64,000 nt of DNA from Absidia repens (taxonomy: Eukaryota > Mucoromycota > Mucoromycetes > Mucorales > Cunninghamellaceae), in assembly GCA_002105175.1 (NCBI GenBank), contig MCGE01000003.1:1302001-1366000 (forward strand). Reading direction: 5' to 3'. Below the pieces are notes generated by a model. The model saw only the letters and a program-made list of their open reading frames with translations. It was not told the DNA's origin and made no database searches. The position numbers were made by a program, and so were the translations under genes. Shown piece by piece: positions 1 through 64,000 of this stretch (position 1 is its first letter; each line of letters starts with the position of its first letter).

Positions 1-910
1 CGGCTTTCTAGTTTACACACTACGGCACTTCCCCCTTCCCAAAAAAAAAGAATCCCAGCGACTAAGTTGCGCTACCAGGTCACTTGGTGTGAAATGTGGC
101 CCTATATGCGCTCCACCATCCATGTCAATTAACCAAACAGTACCTTCTCCCCCACCCTCCCTCACCTACCCTTTCCCATAAATATTATCACCCCTATAAA
201 ATATTATCGCCTCCATTAAACTAGATATTTTGTATTTATCCTATTTGATAATAATAATAATAATAATAATAAAAAAAGAACCGTAAAATTCCTAAACAAA
301 AGCCTGTTTGGCGCAAAGGAACCATCCATCAAAATGCGAAACGGAGAAGACGTAAATATCTATCATGTTCTTGTTTTTTTCTCAAAAAATAGAACAATTT
401 TTCTTTCATGTTTTCCTCCTCTAGTTCGTCAGCAAAAAATTCAAATGATATTTTTATAACGTCAGACACGTAGATTATTTCATGCTTGTAACCTGACAAT
501 TTAGTGCATGAACTCGTTTAATCCCCATCCAGCGTCTTCCTTCCTCCATGTCTTTACTTTAACTCCATCTTCTATGAGTCCCATCCTGTTCGCACTGATG
601 CCCCACACCTATTTTTGACTATATTCCAGTGGACTCACCCATTCATTCATCTTATACATATATATTGAGTACAATAAAGAGAAGTTTAAAAACTATTTTA
701 TTATCAAGGAATATAATAAGGTAAGAGTAAATAAAATAAGCGGATCAAATAAATAATAATAAAAAAAGAGAGAGAGTAAGATAGGTATGAGGATAAATAT
801 CAAGAATATACGATAAACTAAAAAGTAAAAGGGAGGAGGGGTAGGAGGGGAGCTAACTATAAGCAGTCCGTTCAGCAATGGCTGTGATCAGAAGACAACA
901 AGCAGGCATA
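1..910. other. Intergenic DNA, no gene recognised
   Basis: AT-rich sequence with an ATA trinucleotide run near 248-272 and T/A homopolymers. No ORF resembles a protein. The right end would contain the 3' UTR of the Rab2 gene, which is transcribed leftwards. Confidence 0.5.
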
Positions 911-2353
911 TTAACAACAGGCACCACCTTGAGTTTCTTCGCTCAATGAGCTTTTTTGGACAGGACCCAGGCGAATACCAGACGTCTAAAAAGTAAAGAT
1001 GAGCGAGAATGAGAATGATCCACACACACACACACTTTTTTTTGGATAGTTGGATTTTACCTCGTTGCTTGTGAATTCGCCTGATTTTATTTTTTCGTAT
1101 ACATTTTCCGCTGTCTTAACAAATACTTCTTCCACGTTGCTAGCTGATTTGGCTGATGTTTCCAAAAATAGAGCAATCCCATTTTCTTTTGCAAACCGTT
1201 CCGCTTCTTCCGAAGTTACTTGTCGTTTACTTTCATCCAAATCTGATTTATTGCCAACCAAGACAATTGTTGTATGAGGATTGGCATGTCGACGAACGTC
1301 TATGTACAGAATGAATAAATAAAGTTAATGTCATTATCCCTAATGTCATGGTGTATAATATTTACCGGCCAGCCAAGTGGAAATGTGTTCAAAACTTTCA
1401 CGCCTATTGAACACCATAAACAATTCATGCAAAGTGGAGTAAGTATGCATGTACGCTATTAATGCTGGTTTTTTATGTTGTGAAGGACGAGCTAGCTTAC
1501 CTTGAGATATCATACACTGCAAAATATATAAAGCAATAAAGTGAGTGACTGTCTATAAAATACAAAACCAATCCATATGAACACACATCTTACCTAGCAA
1601 AGCGCCGGCTGCGCCGCGGTAATAGCTCTATGGAACCAAAATGAACAAATTAGTGTCATCATAATCACATGTGTCCTGTTGTGTATTTTTTCACTTACCT
1701 GTGTGATACTTCTGAAGCTTTCTTGTCCAGCCTAATCGGTTTGATAGAAACCCCCCGTGGGGAGGCATAAGTATCATGAGTTCACCTCCTTATTTTTCCA
1801 GAATCGTTTCTATGTATCGTAATATACTTACGGTGTCCCAAATTTGCAACTTGATTTGTTTATCATCCACTGATATGAACCGTGTACCAAATTCGACACT
1901 GAAATACAAGGAAGTAAAAGTGTAAGTCAACGATAGTTTGCCAGGTCAACGTCTACCTTTACCCAATAGTTAGTTCACGGCCAGCATTGAATCGCTTATC
2001 TGTGAACTGTATCAATAAACAAGACTATCAAGATGAGAAGGTAATGTCAGTAATGAGTACAAAATGCAGTCGGATCACCCTCCCCTCTCTTTATTGTATT
2101 CAGCCTACCTTTCCAACACCTGTCGCAGTATCAAGGTTCAGATAATATAGATAAGAAGGTCATGGTTAACAGATTTAGTCATGTTGAGGTGGATTGAGCA
2201 TTTTTCAATTGCCTTACCAGAATCACCAACGATAATATACTAAGAGGTCAATGAAATGAAGAAAGAAGAGTTTAATACCCATCCGTTAGTAGCAAGATAT
2301 ATGTATGCTAAAAGGTTGTCACCTACCTTTATAATATAGTTATAGCTTGACAT
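911..2353 (-). CDS. Rab2-type small GTPase, 11 exons
   Basis: Spliced product of about 207 residues that controls vesicle tethering at the Golgi and on endolysosomal membranes (family knowledge). Joined exons give an N-terminus starting MSSYNYIIK, the P-loop GDSGVGKS, switch I ending ELTIGVEF, switch [15 protein letters not shown], then NKSDL and ETSAK for guanine recognition, and a C-terminal GGACC for double geranylgeranylation. AGQESFRSI and SASNVEE point to Rab2 rather than Rab4 or Rab14. Exons on the minus strand begin at 2353, and the last one is 985-911. Several exons are tiny: 11 nt (GVGK), 16 nt (VYDIS) and 22 nt (YIIVGDSG). Every junction I checked has GT-AG and keeps the frame. The start is the only ATG that gives the conserved N-terminus. 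The gene lies downstream of FAL1 on the same strand. Confidence 0.93.
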
Positions 2354-2539
2354 GATGGAAGTGGTAAAAAAAAAGGGCACAAAGATAAATAATAAAAAAG
2401 ATAAAAAGAGGAGTTCCCAAAAGAAAAAAGGAAAAAAGCAGCAGGATTGTAAAAAATTAAATACATCACATGGAGTGGCACTTTTTATTTGGATGGCAAT
2501 AAAACTATAACTAAAACTAAAACTAAAACTATATAAAAA

Positions 2540-4209
2540 TCAAATCATATCAGTCACTAGTAGCAAAGAAAGAAAAAATGTGTTAGTAAAAAATCACCCT
2601 TCCTTTGTAAAATCCCACTTCATGTTATGTCTTTTGTTGCTTACCATTCATGGGCATTTCATCAATTTGTGTACTGTAATATTGTTCAATATCTCGGAGA
2701 ATCTTCAAATCATCATTCTTGACAAAGTTGATGGCAACACCTTTACGGCCAAATCGTCCTGAACGACCAATTCTGTGAATATAGTTTTCTCGATTGCCGG
2801 GTAAATCGTAGCTAACGGGGAGGTATCATATCATTAGTCATGTGTATAAATATATATCCAACACCCAACTTACTTGATAACCAACGATACTTGTTGAACA
2901 TCAATACCACGAGCCCACACGTCTGTAGTGATTAAAACACGACTAGACGAAAAAAATAAAAATAAAAGCAATAAGGATCAGTACTTCCAATTCTTCAACC
3001 CATCACTATTCTTTCTTACCTAGCACCTTGACGGAATTCATTCATAATAGCGTCACGTTCTTTTTGGGGCATTTCACCGTGCATAGCTGATACTGTAAAA
3101 TTGGCTTCACGCATCTTTTCGGTCAACCAGTCCACCTTAGAAGTAAAAAGTGATAATCAATACACGTATTCAATTTCCCTTTCCTACACGATTTTCTTTT
3201 CAATAGTTTACCTTTCGACGAGTATTACAAAAGATGACAGCTTGAGTGATGGTCAACGTATCATACAAATCACATAATGTATCGAACTTCCATTCTTCTT
3301 GTTCCACGGCGACAAAGAATTGCTTGATACCTTCCAGGGTCAGCTCGTCACGCTTCACAAGGATACGAATAGGGTCGGTCATAAAGTTTTGGGTCATAGT
3401 GAGTACGTCGTGGGGCAAAGTGGCAGACAATAATACCACTTGTGTTGAAGGTGGTAAATGGCGGTAAATATCGTATATTTGATCCTTGAATCCCATGTTG
3501 AGCAATTCGTCGGCTTCATCCAACACCAACATCTTGATGTTACGTGTACGCAAGTTTCGTCGTCGGATCATATCATAAACACGACCAGGCGTTCCAGACA
3601 CAACATGCACTCCGTTGTCCAATCGACGAATATCTTCACCTACATTGGTACCACCGATACAGGCATGACATTGTACATTCATATAGTCGCCAAGCGCCAG
3701 AACCACGCTTTGGATTTGTGTTGCTAATTCGCGTGTAGGTGACAAAATCAAAGCTTGTGTTTCCCGTACTGCTGTGTCGATTGTTTGAAGTACCGAAATA
3801 GAGAAGGTTGCTGTTTTACCAGTACCAGATTGTGCTTGGGCAATCACATCACGACCGCGAGTGATTGGTACAATAGCTAGATTCCATTATAAAAGAAAAG
3901 CAAAGATTTGATTGTTAGTTCAATATTGCATAGCATATACTTCGTTTTTCCTGGCTTACCCCGCTGTTGAATAGCTGATGGTTTTTCAAAGTTGTAAGCA
4001 TAGATACCACGTAATAAATCTTCCTTTAAACCAATGGAATCAAAGGTAGGCACGACTTTGACCTGTGTAAACAAAAAAAAAACAAAAAAAAAATACAGAG
4101 TAAATATACACTGCGATATTAAACACACATTCATCATTAACTATATTGTACTTACGTTTTCTGATGTTTCAAAGGCGAGTTTATTGTCAGTTGAGTGATC
4201 GAAGGACAT
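2540..4209 (-). CDS. DEAD-box RNA helicase eIF4A3/FAL1
   Basis: Seven exons: 4209-4156, 4062-3960, 3876-3212, 3135-3020, 2942-2874, 2811-2645 and 2556-2540. Together they make 1,191 nt, or 396 residues, the usual eIF4A size. Motifs in order: Q motif ([10 protein letters not shown]), I (AQSGTGKT), Ia (PTRELA), GG, Ib (TPGR), II (DEAD), III (SAT), then IV-VI in the C-terminal lobe with HRIGRSGR. The full-length match, including ETSEN near the N-terminus and the ending EMPMNVTDMI, is characteristic of eIF4A3/FAL1 rather than translational eIF4A. Family role: ATP-dependent RNA clamp in the exon-junction complex and factor for 18S rRNA processing, acting in nucleus and nucleolus. The last coding exon is only 17 nt. 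An EJC component fits a genome this rich in introns. Confidence 0.95.
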
Positions 4210-55459: not shown

Positions 55460-55481
55460 CTTGTGAATGATACAAAAAAGA

Positions 55482-55555
55482 TGTCTTCGTGCAGATTCGA
55501 ACTGCAGACCGTCTGTGTGTTAGACAGACGTGATAACCAACTACACCACGAAGAC
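55482..55555 (-). tRNA. tRNA-Val (anticodon AAC), copy 2
   Basis: 74 nt, identical in sequence to 43857-43930, with intact A and B boxes and anticodon AAC. A run of A on the plus strand (55473-55478) is the Pol III T-run terminator. The 5' flank is ACTTATG, then GATT, then the first LTR; the 3' flank holds the end of R2 array 2. Confidence 0.97.
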
Positions 55556-55566
55556 ACTTATGGATT

Positions 55567-55878
55567 TGTGGCATTGGGAACTTCTATATGAGCCCAATCG
55601 CCCATTTCCAGCCAATCAGAGCTCTTCTTGGGTTAGAATAGCTGTATTTCCCCTTTTTGTGTGTTTGTGACCCCTGATAGTAGTACATAGCTTCTTACCA
55701 CTTGTATCAACTTTATTTTTATTTATATATTTTTTTTGGTCATGAATGACTGTCTTTATTTTTTATTTATCAGTGTGTGAAAAGGAATTTGAAAAAAAAA
55801 AGGAAGCTTTATCCCCTTTACTTTTATTTTTTTTTGGTTGACTCAATTGTGGAGTTATTTAGTTACAGCGACGTAACA
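55567..55878 (+). repeat. Solo LTR A1
   Basis: Starts TGTGGCATTGGG, ends GACGTAACA (TG...CA), 312 bp, flanked on both sides by GATT (55563-55566 and 55879-55882). The same sequence starts again at 63274 (A2). The left GATT is 8-11 nt upstream of the tRNA-Val 5' end. Confidence 0.75.
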
Positions 55879-55882
55879 GATT

Positions 55883-56599
55883 TGACAAGTTGGGAAGTAA
55901 TCTATATTTTGCGGTCAGTCGGGAATTCAATATCATTCGGCCCGTGTATATTGGACGGTGATTGGCTCTCTACCGATAGTCTGCTGGTTTTGAAATCTAT
56001 TTATTTTGGGCGCGAACCTTTTATTTTTTTTTATTTCTTTTCCTTTTCCCCTTTCTCTTCCCACCTTTTCCCATTCATTCATTTTGACATTGTCTCAGTT
56101 CCCTTTACCTTCATTTTATTCTCCTTTCTCTCTCTCCCCATTATTATTACATTGTTTCAGTTCCCTTGTTTTTCTTCTTTAGTTTAGAACCCCCCATTTA
56201 TTCATTCATTCTCTTTTCTTTATTTTTATTTTATTGATCTTGACTCTGGACTATGACTCTGGACTCTTCTTCTCTTTTTACTTCTGTCGCCGACAAAGTA
56301 TTATTCTTAACACTCTCATTTAGTCATTGTTTTATGTATATTTGAATCTATTTTTGATTTTGAAATAAAGAACAACTCTTTCTCATCTCTTATTTTTTTT
56401 TATTATCTTGCTTTACTTTTGTTGGTGTTTCCCCTCTTCTCTTATTGTTTCATATCTATTCACTCTTGATACGGAATACTAGCCTATATTGATAGAATAA
56501 TTACTAGATTGAACATCAGAAAAGTAAGCTATTCAGTGCTGTATTGATAAAGGACCTTCTATACATCAATTATTAATAAAAGCAATTCCAAACGTCTCA
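55883..56599 (+). repeat. Solo LTR B1
   Basis: 717 bp starting TGACAAGTTGGGAAG and ending CCAAACGTCTCA, flanked by GATT on both sides (55879-55882 and 56600-56603). It shares long similar stretches with B2 (62596-63270), for example TTGGACGGTGATTGGCTCTC and TTCTATACATCAATTATTAA. Confidence 0.8.
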
Positions 56600-56603
56600 G
56601 ATT

Positions 56604-57037
56604 TGATACGTTGCGTAGTGGTATATGAACCAATCCCTCCATTTTCCTGAACGGACCTTGTCTCTTTTTATTTTCTTTAGTTTATCTTTATATTTAGTAT
56701 ATACTTTTATATATTATCGTTACTTAGTTTTTATCCTTTTATTCTTTATATTCTTTTATTTATTTATTTATTATTTTTACAGATCGCCGCTCTAATCTCG
56801 ATTATTTATGACAGATGGACGGTCGATTCTGATAAACAAAAGCTTTTTCTGGTATTTATTTTTATTATTAACTCTGTCAACCGCAAGACTGCATCCCCTT
56901 TGTTACTACAATTATTCAAAACAGCACGAACACGAACAGAATCGTTGATTAAATACATTGTAAAGAATTAAGAAGACGCAAGAAGAAAGATCAAGACAAG
57001 AAGAACGAATAATCAAGCTTAAATACCATACGTCTCA
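56604..57037 (+). repeat. 5' LTR of the Ty3-like element
   Basis: Starts TGATACGTTGCG and ends CCATACGTCTCA. It differs from the 3' LTR by scattered substitutions and a 33-nt length difference at about 56767, so the insertion is not recent. Confidence 0.92.
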
Positions 57038-57039
57038 TT

Positions 57040-57056
57040 TTGGTGGAGAACCTGGG
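57040..57056 (+). other. Primer-binding site candidate
   Basis: TGGTGGAGAACCTGGGC starts 2 nt after the 5' LTR. TGG complements the CCA end of a tRNA, as expected of a minus-strand PBS. The priming tRNA was not identified. Confidence 0.55.
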
Positions 57057-58634
57057 CATATAATTGCTGTTGACAGTTGACGTTTTGTATTATTTTATCA
57101 TCAACCCCTTTTCATTTAGATTTAGTAACCCCACGCACGTTACTTTTAGAATATTTTAATATCCCTGTTGTATACCAACACATTCACCTATCATTCCATC
57201 TACCATATACCTTTTCATATATACATATTCATATTTATCTATACACTTATTCCTATACCTTAGTTCATGCATATGCGATCATTCCATAATACGTAATTCA
57301 GACCCCGAATCACACACTACACAAATTCCTATCATATTCATCACCCCTATTTTTACATAACCACATACCATCACATCAGTATAAATAAGACAATACATTT
57401 GAATAGAAATAAAGAATCATCCAAAAGTTTCACAATACTTGATAACAAGTCTTATTTTATTCTATAATATAACAATCCCTTTACTTTTGTTTCGTTTTCA
57501 TAATTTTTTATTGATAGCGAGACGTTTATTATTTTTTATTACACATTTTTGACAGCTCCAAACACTCGTGCAATTTACCCATTTTTGGTGTAATGATCAT
57601 ATTTTGTTACTCATATTTTACTATTTAATTTTTATATAATGATCATAGTTTACTACTTAATTATTTTACCACTTAACTTTTATTTATAATGATCATAGTT
57701 TACTGTCCCATTTTTTATATATAATAGCTAACTATTTTATTTTACTTCCAACCACATTCTTTCCATCACACTCTTATATATCCCCTAACATCCTCTACTG
57801 CTCCAACCCTTATCACTATTAGCATTTCACTTCTTATTCATCTTTTTACTACCACTTTCCCCAATCGGAACATTCCACCGATTTAATATAAAAAGATGAA
57901 TCAAATCAAATCAAATAAAAGACATTCAATTATCATTCAATTATCAACGTTCAAATATCACTGTTTTATTTTCATAAACAAATCAAACACTACTATCAAA
58001 GATCTACTTATCTTTCCAGTGTTCCTTTTTATATATCACGCTATATAATTCCTTGTCCTCATCAGACATTATTTTTGGTTGTCACGTCTTCCATTGTTGA
58101 ACCTAATTGTCTCGCCCCTAAAATGTAATTTGACCTCCGCTGTGTCCTTCGGCATTACTATGCCTATTGCATAAATACATTTGTCTAATTGTATATTTTA
58201 GTATTCTATATCTCTAGTTACGCCTAGTCCTCCCTCTTACTATATATACATACTTCCCTTCTGTTCTTTATTATTGTAAGACCCATTCAATAATAGTCAT
58301 GCTAATCTACATTGTTCTAATCACCTTCCTTTTCTACCCATATCCCCTGACGTGCACACCTATCACTATAGGTGCAAGTACACTTTTCCCTTCTGTAGTG
58401 TTTACCCTTGACATTTGGTAACACTACACGTTTTTATACACTTGACAGACACAATTTTTTCGGACAAAGAAGTATTTTTTTTTTTTTGAATATCATCATC
58501 TAAATCTAATCTACTTTCTAGTCTATACTACCCATTCACATTTCCTTTCCTTCCCCTTTTTTTATAGTTTATTTTTATTTCCCCTCACCCCCCTTTTATT
58601 TTTAATTTTTTATCCACTTTTTTTTATTTACCTT
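57057..58634 (+). other. Long non-coding leader of the Ty3-like element
   Basis: About 1.6 kb, AT-rich, with no long ORF, and unusually long for a Ty3-type leader. An AATAAA near 57407 and TTCAATTATCATTCAATTAT near 57940 suggest that an older element or solo LTR may be embedded, but I could not define its ends. Confidence 0.4.
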
Positions 58635-59498
58635 ATGGAAGACAGTGGACCGATCAATCTCCGCCCGTATGTGGATAAACCGGACCGGTATTATGGAACG
58701 CAACAGGAAAACCCTCTGGCCTGGATCCGTAACTTGAAGATACTAAAAAATGGCTTACAGCTTGGCGATCGTGATGTGTTGTTTTTGGCGTCGACGTTGC
58801 TGAAAGGTTCTGCTGCTTCTTGGTGGGACATGATGAATGACAAGGTTGCGACGTGGGTAGAATTTGAGTCGGAATTCGTTTCGTTTTTCGTCTCAGAAGA
58901 AACCCGCGAAAGCTGGTGGACCGAACTGGAATGCTTACGTCAAGGATCGTTGTCGGTGGGCGAAGTACAATTGCAATTGGAAGAGCTGCCCACTAGGTTG
59001 AATATGAAGGATGACGCCATGAAGAAAAGATATCTAATCAAGTCGCTTAACAAGGAATTGGCATACGAAGTGTAAAGAAGTCGCCCCGAGAAGTTTTTGG
59101 ACACTATCAAGGAAGCGAAGAGAGTTGAGGCTTTAAAAAACAAATATTTGGATAATCAAAACGGTCGCAAACCTCCAACATACCTTACCTCTTCCACGCC
59201 ATCATCATATTCGTATGAATCTGGTCCAGCAAGCTCAGTCAACGCTACGGATCGTTTGGCAGAAGACTTCACGAAGGCATTGAAAATCCACATGGCGAAT
59301 CTGAACCTGGTTGGACTGCAACAACAACAAGGATACGAAGGTCGTGGTCAAGATGGAAGATTTGATGGCCCTCCCAAGTGCTTCGGTTGTAATGAAGTTG
59401 GTCACATAAGTAGGTATTGTCCCAATCGTCGGCGGGAGTATCAAGGTCCGTCAAGCTATCAACGAAACTTCGATTCGGAAAAAGGTCAAGGGCAGTAG
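58635..59498 (+). pseudogene. gag of the Ty3-like element, one in-frame stop
   Basis: Reading frame of about 287 codons with a single TAA at 59073-59075. The first part is a capsid (retrotransposon gag) domain with NPLAWIRNLKILK, LKGSAASWWDMM and RYLIKSLNKELAYEV. After the stop the frame continues to a CCHC zinc knuckle, CFGCNEVGHISRYC, near 59379-59420. Role: the nucleocapsid part binds element RNA. Translation would now stop after 146 residues. Confidence 0.85.
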
Positions 59499-61159
59499 AT
59501 GATGTGGTTGGTACTGCTGTCCTAAACAACAACCAAGGCAAGCCGAAGAATGAAGAAGCGAAGAAGGCATTTGTGGTGCAAGGCGTCAAGATGTGGAACG
59601 TGAATACTGAAGGAAGGTCCAAAACGCAAGGTGTACGTACAAGATCGGTGGTGTCGGACGAGCCGGAAGTATCCCAAGGAAAGCGTCGTACGGTTGGTAC
59701 TGGTGTGGTCGATGTGGTCCGTGATCGTGTGACGAATGACAAGCCTGCAAGAAAGAAGAGAGCGCCCCCGGGAAAATTGGAAGTCGATGTTGGTGAAACT
59801 GATGTTTGGTCGGTGTTGAAGTCTACTGATAGTGGTGTTAGCTTGGCCCAATTGATTGCGACGAACAAAAAGGTTGCTGGTGACATTCAAGCTGGTATTC
59901 GGTGCATGCATGGTCCCAAGAAGAAATCGGTGAAGATTGACAACAAAGGCAAAGGACCGCAGGTGTATAGGGCTTCCGTAAGGTGTATTGAGAATTCGGA
60001 TGATGAAGTGAGTTCCGGGGGTGAATATGATTCGAGATCCGAGGGTAGCGATGATAGTTCTGAGGGTAACGATGTTGATTCGTATTTGTATCCATCCGGC
60101 TATTCTTCTGGCGATGAATCTTCTGAAGTGGAATCTGAAGTCGAGGATAGTTCGTTTGGCTATGAGTCGGATGATACACATTATGAATATGCATATGACA
60201 TCAATCGGTTGAAGGAAGCATCACCATTCATGGTCACTGCGAAAATCGGCAAGTTGGAGACGGAGGCTGTTGTCGATACTGGTGCAGCTACGTTGGTGAT
60301 CAGTAAAGGATTGGCAAAAAAGTTGGGTCTGAGGGTGAATGGAGATCGGATGACAATTGAGCAATTGGATGGTAATCCTTCAAAGCCGAACGGTGTTTGT
60401 GAGCAGGTGCGGTTGCGAGTAGGTGGCAAGCTGAGACCGGAGCACTTCATTGTACACGATAACAAGGCTGATTTGATGCTGCTGGGTATGACATGGTTTG
60501 AAGCGTATGGTGCTGTACCTCTCCCTCAAGAAAGAAGACTGGTGATCCCCACAAGAAGCGGTAAAGATGTTGTAGTCCAAGGTAGGTTTATGAGTGACGA
60601 AGAGCAGAGGGTGTATACGGCCGGATCTGTAGGGATATATCACGCAAAAATAGGTAGTGTTAGTCAAGAGGTACATGCTGGAGAGGACGAAGCATATGAG
60701 AAGGAAAAGGAAGTGTTAGCGTTACCTGAGGGAGTGCAGTTGGTGTTGGATGAGAATGATGACAAGGTGTTTGTTGAAACGGCGGAACTGGGTAAGGTAG
60801 AAGCATTCGAGCACAAGATTGTAACCCCTGTGGACGCCCCGAATATAAGCAAACCGTACCGTGTAACTTGGCAAGAAGACGAATGTGTGAAGGAAGCCTG
60901 TACGAAGTACAACCTGCGATTGAAGAAGAAGAAGAAGAAGAAAAGTTACTTTAGCCGACAAGAAGACGAATGTTTGGGTCATGCAATCAGTACTAATGGA
61001 AGCTTACAAAAAGGATCGGAAAACCCAGCGGATGCGTTATCAAGGTTGGTGGAATGTAGTGATAGTTGTTTGTTGGATGCTTGTGTCGACGATGAAGAAG
61101 ATATTTTTTTTTTAAAAAAAAACAAAAAGGAAAGAAAAAAAAAAAAAATGAAAAAATGA
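59417..61159 (+). pseudogene. pol remnant: protease plus joined RT and RNase H ends
   Basis: Open frame of 580 codons, in the -1 frame relative to gag and overlapping its end, as in elements that use frameshifting. A basic/acidic linker leads to a retropepsin with VVDTGAATLVISKGLA near 60270 (Asp-Thr-Gly active site). The start of the RT domain follows (ISKPYRVTWQEDEC near 60845). The sequence then jumps to FLGH-like LGHAISTNG and to the RNase H end ENPADALSR near 61020. Roughly the whole catalytic RT and RNase H core is missing. A 15-nt direct repeat marks the joint (see findings). The end is A-rich junk. Confidence 0.85.
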
Positions 61160-61385
61160 AAAGAAAAAATAAGTAAACAAAAAAAAAAAAAGAGGCATGT
61201 GAAAAAAAAAAACAAAAAAAAAACTCCTGATCGATTTGATCATAGTTTAGAAATTACCCTTTTTTTTATTATTAGTATTGACCCTTAGAATAGAAATTGA
61301 ACCCTTAGATTAGACAACGACAACTCAACACATTTTTGGTACGGAAACAGTCAGAACGAAAGTAGACCGGCAACAAAGTACTAAA

Positions 61386-61727
61386 ATGGACATCGCAAAA
61401 TACTTAGCAATACAAAATTACATATCAAGCAAGACTTACCCTTTGGACTGCGAATCTCCCAAGGACAAGAAACGTTACGAAGTTGGTGACCAGGTGCTGT
61501 TACTGGACAACAACAAGGCAGAACAATTGGACGATATGTGGTTGGGACCCTTCTCGGTGACCAAAGCGAACTCAAATGGAACCTACTGGTTAATTGGCAA
61601 GGACCAACGACGACTGCAAGGTGCTGTGAATGTGGAGAAGTTACGTCCCTGGAACCAAAGGAAGTCTCTCGTGCCAAATATATCCTCTGGTCCCCTTCTT
61701 GAATTTGTGGAAAGAAAACGCCGATGA
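61386..61727 (+). pseudogene. Integrase C-terminal remnant
   Basis: 113-codon frame with KKRYEVGDQVLLLDNN, then WLGPFSVTKANSNGTYWLI and VNVEKLRPWNQ. This is the SH3-like C-terminal part of Ty3/gypsy integrases. The zinc-binding HHCC and DDE core that should precede it are absent. Confidence 0.85.
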
Positions 61728-61774
61728 TTCCTTTTTTGTTTGTGCCTGAAAGAAAAAGAGAGGTCTTGGTCTAA

Positions 61775-61786
61775 GTTGGGGGGAAA
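61775..61786 (+). other. Polypurine tract
   Basis: GTTGGGGGGAAA directly precedes the 3' LTR. A G/A-rich tract at this place is the plus-strand primer site of LTR elements. Confidence 0.8.
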
Positions 61787-62253
61787 TGATACGTTGCGTA
61801 GTGGTATATGAACCAATCCCTCCATTTTCCTGAACGGACCTTGTCTCTTTTTATTTTCTTTAGTTTATCTTTATATTTAGTATATACGTTTATATTCATT
61901 ATCGTCACTTAGTTTTTATCCTTTTATTCTTTATATTCTTTTATTTATTTACTTATTTTAGTAGACGTTTATCATTTTATTTATTTTATTTTTACAGACC
62001 GCCGCTCTAATCTCGATTATTTATGACAGATGGACGGTCGATTCTAATAAACTTAAGCTTATTCTGGTATTTTATTTTTATTATTAACTCTGTCAACCGC
62101 AAGACTGCCTCCCCTTTGTTACTACAATTATTCAAAACAGCACGAACACGAACAGAATCGTTGATTGAATACATTGTAAAGAATTAAGAAGACGCAAGAA
62201 GAAAGATCAAGACAAGAAGAACGAATAATCAAGCTTAAATACCATACGTCTCA
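61787..62253 (+). repeat. 3' LTR of the Ty3-like element
   Basis: 467 bp, TGATACGTTGCG to CCATACGTCTCA, collinear with 56604-57037. Followed by GAAA (62254-62257). Confidence 0.92.
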
Positions 62254-62257
62254 GAAA

Positions 62258-62591
62258 TGAGAGATTGGATTCTTATACTTCTGGCTTTTTGTTCCCCCAA
62301 TACATGTAATTTAACCGACGACCTCTTCACCAATCATTTTTCTTTCCGAACTCTTCTCTGTTTGAAACTCCACTGCGCTTCCCATTTTATTTTTCTCCTT
62401 TTTTTTTGCCACTTCTCCATCGCCAACGTCCATCATTACACAAATTTAGCCTCCAGTTTATTATTTTTAGTAGTGTTACTTATTTATTTTGATTTAGAAT
62501 ATATAGAAAACAAGTGACGAATTCAATAAAGGATAACCTTTTCTTTTCTTAAAAATCTTTTGGCCCCCATTATCAATTTTGTTTACTGTCA
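62258..62591 (+). repeat. Solo LTR C
   Basis: 334 bp starting TGAGAGATTGG and ending TTTACTGTCA, with GAAA on both sides (62254-62257 and 62592-62595). It contains CAATAAAGG near 62524. Apart from its first ~12 nt it is unlike B. Confidence 0.65.
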
Positions 62592-62595
62592 GAAA

Positions 62596-63270
62596 TGAGA
62601 AATTGGAAGGTAATATGTATTTTGCGGTCAAGCGGAGAAACAATATCATTCGGCCCGTATTTATTGGACGGTGATTGGCTCTCTACTGACAGACTGCTGG
62701 TTTTGGATTCTATTTATTCTGGTCGCGAACCTTTATTTTTTTCCCCTTTCTCTTCCCACCTTTTCCCATTCATTCATTTTGACATTGTCTCAGTTCCCAT
62801 CTTTTAGCTTATCTTCATTTACTACATTGATTTAGTTTCCTCCTTTCGTTACTTATTTTTATTTGCATTTTTCAGTTCCCATTACTTTTATATTATGGTT
62901 TCTATCTTATTTTTACATTACTTGAATTAGCGACACAAGTAACTCCCCCAACTCATTCTTTTCATACTAGTGTAGTATAGGTATTCTAGTATTTTGTCTC
63001 TTCATTCTGACATTCTGAAATAAAAAACAACTTCTTTTCTCTCTCTATTTTTTTATATACAATTTTTTGACTTGCTTTATATTGTTTGTTGGCGTTTCTC
63101 TCCTTCTCTTGTTATTCCCTATCTATTCTCTCTTTGATACGGAATATTGGCTCTTATTGATAGAATATTTATTAGATTGAACATCAGAAAGGTAAGATAT
63201 TCAGTGCTCCGCATAGCTAAAGAACCTTCTATACATCAATTATTAATAACAGCAAATTCCAAACGTCTCA
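62596..63270 (+). repeat. Solo LTR B2
   Basis: 675 bp, TGAGAAATTGGAAGG to CCAAACGTCTCA, related to B1 with substitutions and indels. Preceded by GAAA; followed by GAA and then by A2. Confidence 0.75.
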
Positions 63271-63273
63271 GAA

Positions 63274-63480
63274 TGTCGCATTGGAAGCTTCTATTTGAGC
63301 CCAATTGTTCATTCCAGCCAATCAGAGCTCTTCTTTAGTTAGAATACAGGTATTTTTCCTTTTGTTAGTCTGTGACCCCTGACTAGTAGTACATAGCCTC
63401 TTTATCACTTATAGCAACTTTATTTATTTATTATTTTTTTGGTCATGAATGACTGTCTTTATTTTTATTTATCAGGGTGT
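63274..63480 (+). repeat. Partial LTR A2
   Basis: TGTCGCATTGGAAGC onwards follows A1 closely (GAGCTCTTCTT, GTGACCCCTGA, GGTCATGAATGACTGTCTTT) until TATCAGGGTGTG. There it stops at the inverted-repeat element, whereas A1 continues. Confidence 0.7.
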
Positions 63481-63482
63481 GT

Positions 63483-63842
63483 CGTATTCCTGGTTCCTGA
63501 TTAGCAATATCTACATCAAAGCATCTATACCATCATCATTTGTATATCTGCATAATCTTCACTCTATTTTTTACCCCTGAATTCCCCACTTATTCTCACA
63601 CTTGTCATATAACCCATCAGATAGCACACAGCCTCAATTATCCGTAGCCTTAAATATACCGTTATCATGCTCCCATCCACAGCCACAAATATCTTCATTT
63701 TATATAAAAAGACTTGTCATTTTATCAATTAAATAAAAACCATATCAATTGTATCACTTATTTTACTTTTGACTTTTTTTATAACAACCACTTCAATATA
63801 CTGTATATATACATATATATTGCTAATCAGGAACTAGGAATA
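63483..63842. mobile_element. Inverted-repeat (MITE-like) element
   Basis: About 360 bp bounded by terminal inverted repeats of roughly 30 nt with one mismatch: left starts GTCGTATTCCTGGTTCCTGA, right ends AGGAACTAGGAATACGAC, and the inner part is GATTAGCAATAT on each side. No ORF. It interrupts LTR A2. A clear target duplication was not found. Confidence 0.7.
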
Positions 63843-64000
63843 CGACCGTATATCACCATTGCCTCGGGATATTTTTTTTAAAGGGCTCCAAATTTTGTAG
63901 CCATGAAATCTGTTTTGAAAATTGTCTAAATATAATTTTATATTGATAAAATGATGCAGAATACTCTCAAGACCATTTCTACTAATGAAGTTTTTCTTTC
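63843..64000. other. Window end, unassigned
   Basis: About 158 nt with no recognised feature. It does not continue LTR A1, so A2 either is truncated or its remainder lies elsewhere. Confidence 0.4.

Follow-up and report, generated by a model that had tools for sequence, protein, structure and literature searches.

The stretch analysed here, referred to as the window, comprises 64,000 nucleotides (nt) from the soil mould Absidia repens (Mucorales; contig MCGE01000003.1, positions 1,302,001 to 1,366,000). On the 5' side of a transfer RNA (tRNA) gene, tRNA-Val (aac), it holds a head-to-tail chain of six retrotransposon units, each a long terminal repeat (LTR), part of one, or, in one case, an element with two LTRs. 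A first-pass annotation had read this chain, from the tRNA outwards, as GATT-A1-GATT-B1-GATT-element-GAAA-C-GAAA-B2-GAA-A2, and both the order and the spacers, including the GATT of the tRNA flank and the final GAA of only 3 nt, are borne out in the sequence (Table 1). It had also described every unit as beginning with TG and ending with CA; we found the TG in all six units and the CA in the five whose 3' end is present (5/5), A2 being cut off at 63480. In the alignments proposed there, A1 and A2 are 86% alike (214 nt), while B1 and B2 are 81-82% alike at both ends. The 5' and 3' LTRs of the two-LTR element, which belongs to family F, are 91% alike with gaps counted, with 10 mismatches in 434 aligned nt and insertions and deletions (indels) totalling 33 nt. 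Five of the six units are today solo LTRs or LTR pieces. Elsewhere, the two-LTR elements of family A at C16 and C1 share the ends of A1 and are bounded by target-site duplications (TSDs) of ACTC/ACTC and GTTT/GTTT.

Further loci were sought with the LTR sequences of families A, B, F and C and later with those of X, E and H, which were taken from the chains; family D was defined from fetched loci only. The analysed set consisted of 76 merged segments (312,602 b including the window) plus three short later stretches. It wholly contained 168 of 192 match pieces for A, B, F, C, X and E, 19 of the 24 missed being X pieces, and only eight tRNA-Val loci were fetched via the tRNA rather than an LTR. 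LTR 5' ends were counted where a copy began within 7 nt of its family's 5' end and enough upstream sequence was at hand (n = 129). Thirty-five of them are located 8-11 nt upstream of a tRNA gene, with all of the LTRs pointing away from the tRNA, and the tRNAs concerned cover 13 amino-acid types. Another 63 come after another identified LTR. The remaining 31, which carried no label, were sorted by hand: 12 are 3' LTRs of two-LTR elements, 15 lie 3-6 nt after a CA (LTR-like ends beyond our family library), and four fit no class clearly (C1:2387992, which follows a truncated A, C3:359037, C32:142188 and C43:75563). Elsewhere in the genome, copies that run end to end begin and stop at the TG and CA positions given for the window, and many other copies are truncated.

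In a tRNA search, a family LTR match was present at most 130 nt upstream in 8 of the 63 best-scoring tRNA genes, and seven of the eight further tRNA-Val loci had no library LTR. Most tRNA genes in these samples are thus unoccupied by these families. Locus L026, which has a solo F copy and in which no tRNA was found, gave no Rfam match. At L020, L028, L037 and L040, extra LTR-like starts outside the library (for example TGGTTCGTGG, TGAAACGTGGCC, TGTTACGTTGGG) also follow chain spacers, so that our count of families is a lower bound.

Spacers between adjoining LTRs measure 4 nt at 44 junctions, 3 nt at 10, 5 nt at seven and 6 nt at one. These are 62 of 63 junctions; the last (C11:747105, apparent length 8 nt) was excluded, its LTR start being rearranged, and the 62 include two copies from a duplicated block at C79. 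Free variation of spacer length is not seen at these junctions. As to the earlier question whether 4-nt spacers of GATT or GAAA type recur at other tRNA genes, the length does recur (44/62), and the words are locus-specific. Family X lies 10-11 nt from its tRNAs (7/7), and the other families 8-10 nt (28/28; Mann-Whitney p = 5.5e-5). Where an X unit has a non-X unit outside it, the spacer is 3 nt in 8 of 8 cases, and where a non-X unit has an X unit outside it, it is 5 nt in five of seven, the other two measuring 4 and 6 nt. Pairs of non-X units are separated by 4 nt in 41 of 45 cases (two 3, two 5), and X pairs in two of three, the third being the rearranged junction. These lengths agree with a rule in which the spacer equals 4 plus the offset of the older unit minus the offset of the newer one. 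The tRNA-Phe chain at C2:127k has, outwards from the flank TTATTGTGT, the spacers GTGT, GTGT, GTG, TGTG, TGTG and TGTG; its single 3-nt spacer stands where GTGT gives way to TGTG, which is what the offset rule calls for. For family X the ends TTGTC...CCGAC were considered as an alternative and discarded, since they would make the outer copy begin with A, unlike the inner copy, as judged at C2:128k, C12:1280k and C45:742k; C11:747k is compatible with both readings.

Spacer words were compared with the flank of the tRNA at their own locus. Walking outwards by script from each of the 35 LTRs anchored at a tRNA, we obtained 54 spacers or outer copies at 26 loci, the other nine anchors giving none because the 3' end of the unit was missing or lay outside the fetched or annotated sequence. 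A fit was defined as a match to the last bases of the own tRNA flank, with one following T allowed. By this measure 39 of 54 spacers fit, whereas 20,000 reshufflings gave 6.7 on average and never more than 26. The first spacer of each locus, taken alone, fits in 21 of 26 cases (reshuffled maximum 10), and a list compiled by hand, in which gaps were crossed as well, had 56 fits among 71 over 30 loci (permuted mean 10.5, maximum 35). Several two-LTR elements have equal 4-nt copies on either side (ACTC, GTTT, TGAA, AAAA). Since the spacers match the tRNA flank of their own locus, the target is a position and not a sequence. A fixed 4-bp target sequence was rejected, the 26 loci having 20 different last-4 words. 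Of the 'same 4-bp target' proposed by the first-pass annotation, what stands is serial integration at one place, 8-11 nt upstream of the mature tRNA, and what falls is the fixed sequence.

LTR divergence differs with rank in the chain. Among 13 two-LTR elements that could be ranked, all five that adjoin the tRNA (rank 1) have LTRs without a mismatch: A at C16 (0/306), A at C1 (0/307), C at C2 (0/337), X at C17 (0/423) and X at C10 (0/194, its 3' LTR partly fetched). All eight of rank 2 or more have between 1 and 75: H (1/444), A at C10 (1/308), B at C10 (8/643), F in the window (10/434), F at C45 (19/463), A at C2 (19/286), F at C2 (43/431) and B at C26 (75/696; exact p = 0.00078). Two E elements, at C23:1020k (18/439) and C12:1279k (10/438), were left out because the fetched stretch held no tRNA. 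Three two-LTR elements succeed one another in the stack at C10, X (563473-557857), B (557853-551646) and A (551641-545791), all fetched without their inner parts; a solo A and a B2 come next. In the hand-typed chains, younger-looking subfamilies lie mostly inside (A1 inside Aold 2:0, B1 inside B2 5:1). A single global time order of the families was not found, many pairs occurring in both orders.

The tRNA-anchored position, the own-flank spacers, the identical LTRs at rank 1 and the length rule support the earlier preference for serial integration over independent insertions, and we are confident that the window chain is a stack of separate, serial, position-specific Ty3/gypsy insertions upstream of tRNA-Val, the newest adjoining the tRNA. 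Each integration would set a new element 8-11 nt from the 5' end of the mature tRNA and duplicate 4 bp there. Earlier insertions would be pushed outwards, so that the newest unit adjoins the tRNA, and the outer 4-bp copy would become a spacer. Spacer k would then be a snapshot of the tRNA flank at the insertion of unit k, its length set by the offset rule. In the window, the passage from GAAA to GATT would correspond to a flank change between F and B1, and the 3-nt GAA to an offset step of +1 nt. Position, orientation bias and a Ty3-like integrase (see below) suggest that the elements may dock on the RNA polymerase III (Pol III) start complex, with TFIIIB or the Pol III start region as the likely contact by analogy with Ty3. 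We also lean towards a broader reading, in which the tRNA 5' flank serves as a stratigraphic record of single-nucleotide resolution: at least eight families (A-F, X and H) would share one docking site, each with its own offset (X about +1 nt) and orientation (H reversed), and the spacer words and lengths would record the order of invasion and the mutations of the flank.

Several observations weigh against this account. The present flank is not matched by 15 of the 54 spacers. The window contributes three of these (GAAA, GAAA, GAA); the others include a TGAC within a TGAA series, C23:905, and some outer copies taken beside rearranged ends. The CCTG spacer at C23:905 equals the flank of another tRNA-Ser chain 6 kb off, which implies exchange between chains. 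The two 3-nt and two 5-nt junctions between non-X units need offset steps within families. In the C10 stack, the rank-2 B is more diverged (8/643) than the rank-3 A (1/308). Finally, two changes in a 4-nt flank at 2.3% divergence between the F LTRs are more than steady neutral drift would give.

The last point touches a refinement that serial insertion requires here, since the change between GATT and GAAA needs one extra event, either a change of the flank or an exchange between a pair of elements. Next to F, C and B2 the outer copies are GAAA, GAAA and GAA+T, and those beside B1 and A1, like the present flank, are GATT. The unequal flanks of F are most simply explained by a change in the tRNA flank between the insertions of F and B1; such a change suffices because B1 and A1 duplicated the changed flank, and by our judgement, which was not computed, it is the probable course of events. 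We regard it as possible, though less so, that F is instead a recombinant of two former F elements, the intervening stretch having been lost through LTR-LTR exchange. The 10 substitutions and 33 nt of indels between its LTRs fit this alternative, as do two substitutions in four bases, which is much at such a divergence; a flank change before B1, however, gives the same pattern without a lost unit.

Serial insertion also has to be set against the possibility that some of the chain's growth came from LTR blocks that were duplicated or exchanged unequally. In favour of such copying, C79:1449k and C79:1473k hold the same inverted D-F-B2 block with 0 mismatches in 1,321 aligned nt, so that blocks do become duplicated, and the chains at C23:905 and C23:911 have the CCTG spacer in common. 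A copied block would bring the spacers of its source, however, as C23:905 seems to have done, whereas spacers differ among loci and mostly fit their own tRNA flank. Family order varies from chain to chain as well, and no other chain among those read has both GATT and GAAA, which makes block duplication a very unlikely origin for the window chain. The two C79 blocks (L041 and L042) are 24 kb apart and inverted, and their F-B2 spacers are 3 nt in one and 4 nt in the other (GCT/GCTT). The two C23 loci (C23:905k and C23:911k; L032 and L033) are tRNA-Ser chains on opposite strands, and CCTG ends the flank of only one of them; the presence of this word in both suggests inversion or gene conversion between them.

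It is more improbable still that the feature targeted is the LTR end or the TG/CA junction and not the tRNA. Although 63 of the 129 ends do come after another LTR, 35 units adjoin a tRNA at 8-11 nt and the spacers match tRNA flanks. Targeting of LTR ends would moreover allow insertion at the outer end of a chain, yet among the 13 ranked elements the five with identical LTRs are the five that adjoin the tRNA. Independent insertions that came to lie close together by chance have a negligible probability, being refuted by the tRNA distances and the distribution of spacer lengths, and we found nothing in their favour.

Serial insertion beside tRNA genes has relatives elsewhere, described here from the parts of the published accounts that were compared. 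Ty3 (sigma) of Saccharomyces cerevisiae, likewise a Ty3/gypsy element at the Pol III start region of tRNA genes, is placed there within a few nt (PMC8632968, PMC5911963), and its docking on the Pol III start complex has been solved (PMC8632968). It differs in duplicating 5 bp where the A. repens elements duplicate 4, and in lying about 15-17 nt from the mature tRNA instead of 8-11 nt (PMC5014426, PMC5006619). Insertions of Tj1 in Schizosaccharomyces japonicus lie 5-11 bp from the mature tRNA on its upstream side and keep to a single orientation; the duplication is 5 bp and the element is oriented as the tRNA gene, whereas A-F and X are opposite and only H runs the same way (PMC4600332). The dictyostelid DGLT-A lies about 15 bp upstream of tRNA genes, with stacking noted, and unlike the A. 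repens families occurs in either orientation (PMC5911963); in the portions compared, neither a chain resolved to its spacers nor a length rule nor an age gradient is described. In Yarrowia lipolytica several LTR families (Tyl3, Tyl6, Ylt1 and LTRyl) also lie near tRNA start sites, and the corresponding portions contain no chain of different families with common spacers. A limited search of open-licence PMC articles on Mucoromycota, Mucorales and early-diverging fungi returned no report of multi-family tRNA-side stratigraphy in Mucorales. We conclude that the mechanism is already known, that the lineage is new and that the stratigraphy is unusually readable. With these results, precise targeting of Pol III genes by Ty3/gypsy elements extends to the Mucorales, where a single locus preserves, as a natural archive, the order in which elements inserted, their relative age, the integration offset and earlier states of the target sequence. 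Such a record allows one to test whether the integrase sets offset and orientation, and how often tRNA flanks mutate or exchange sequence.

The F element of the window had been called a full Ty3-like element. Its LTRs (TG...CA), primer binding site (PBS) and polypurine tract (PPT), all read by eye, are present, as are gag and protease sequences, but it is not full: gag is interrupted by a TAA, and neither reverse transcriptase (RT) nor an integrase core gave a Pfam match, nor did the putative integrase remnant. This copy is an internally deleted element, not an intact one. PBS- and PPT-like stretches also occur beside A, B and C LTRs. By eye, primer binding sites seem family-specific (L030, L036, L037), that of family B resembling the complement of the 3' end of tRNA-Phe and that of family C the complement of the 3' end of tRNA-Arg(acg).

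Table 1. Features of the tRNA-Val chain and of the F element within it (window coordinates; ORF, open reading frame)
Feature	Position	Strand	Remarks
tRNA-Val (aac) gene	55480..55556	-	chain anchor; ARAGORN
10-nt tRNA 5' flank CTTATGGATT	55557..55566	.	last four nt GATT (55563-55566), present target/TSD copy
A1	55567..55878	+	family A solo LTR, 312 bp
Spacer GATT	55879..55882	.	
B1	55883..56599	+	family B solo LTR, 717 bp
Spacer GATT	56600..56603	.	
F element	56604..62253	+	two LTRs
F 5' LTR	56604..57037	+	
Putative PBS TGGTGGAGAACCTGGGCA	57041..57058	+	3 nt past 5' LTR; read from sequence
gag fragment	58635..59075	+	Retrotrans_gag; closed by in-frame TAA
gag continuation	59097..59498	+	CCHC-like knuckle; read by eye in the translation
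Retroviral-type aspartyl protease domain	60236..60502	+	gag-asp_proteas, E 2.3e-11; ORF 59417-61159
Probable integrase remnant	61386..61727	+	N-terminal stretch joined to C-terminal GPF-type end, core missing; by eye against A integrase
PPT GGGGGGAAA	61778..61786	+	adjoins 3' LTR; its GAAA is not a spacer
F 3' LTR	61787..62253	+	
Spacer GAAA	62254..62257	.	
C	62258..62591	+	family C solo LTR, 334 bp
Spacer GAAA	62592..62595	.	
B2	62596..63270	+	solo LTR of second B subfamily, 675 bp
Spacer GAA	63271..63273	.	3 nt; read as GAAT with T common to A2
A2	63274..63480	+	5' part of second A-type LTR, interrupted by terminal-inverted-repeat element

In every family for which genes were read, these are of Ty3/gypsy-like type, and no chromodomain extension like that of Ty3 is visible. 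In a two-LTR A element (L009, 2256-8093) the gene order is gag, protease, RVT_1, RNaseH and integrase, which is that of Ty3/gypsy elements (Metaviridae), and RT precedes integrase in families C and H also (gene order was read in A, C and H). Compared by sequence with solved structures, the A integrase matches Ty3 Gag-Pol best (7q5b, E 7.5e-21). Among the 108 matches listed for it, the named ones are from Mucorales (Rhizopus, Mucor, Lichtheimia, Circinella, Absidia, Parasitella and Choanephora) except for one from Calcarisporiella. The integrases of A, C and H gave no Chromo match at E 0.001, Ty3's own chromodomain being found only by structure. Beyond the Ty3-matched part the A integrase has 27 residues, and the Ty3 chain 105.

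Family H is represented by two copies with complete ends, C2:1550342-1556691 (L020/L021) and C11:562038-562479 (L100), both reversed, with the 3' LTR end towards the tRNA. The C11 copy lies 9 nt from a tRNA-Gly and the other occupies a chain position at C2. As both are reversed (n=2), orientation may be family-specific. At L021, ORFs for the RT/RNaseH and integrase of the reversed H (42-3168, +) lie between C and the older chain.

Next to the outermost unit of the window chain, a 366-bp element whose terminal inverted repeats measure 33 nt and are 94% complementary occupies positions 63481-63846 and breaks A2 at 63480. A similar end sequence is also found within the B2 of L038.

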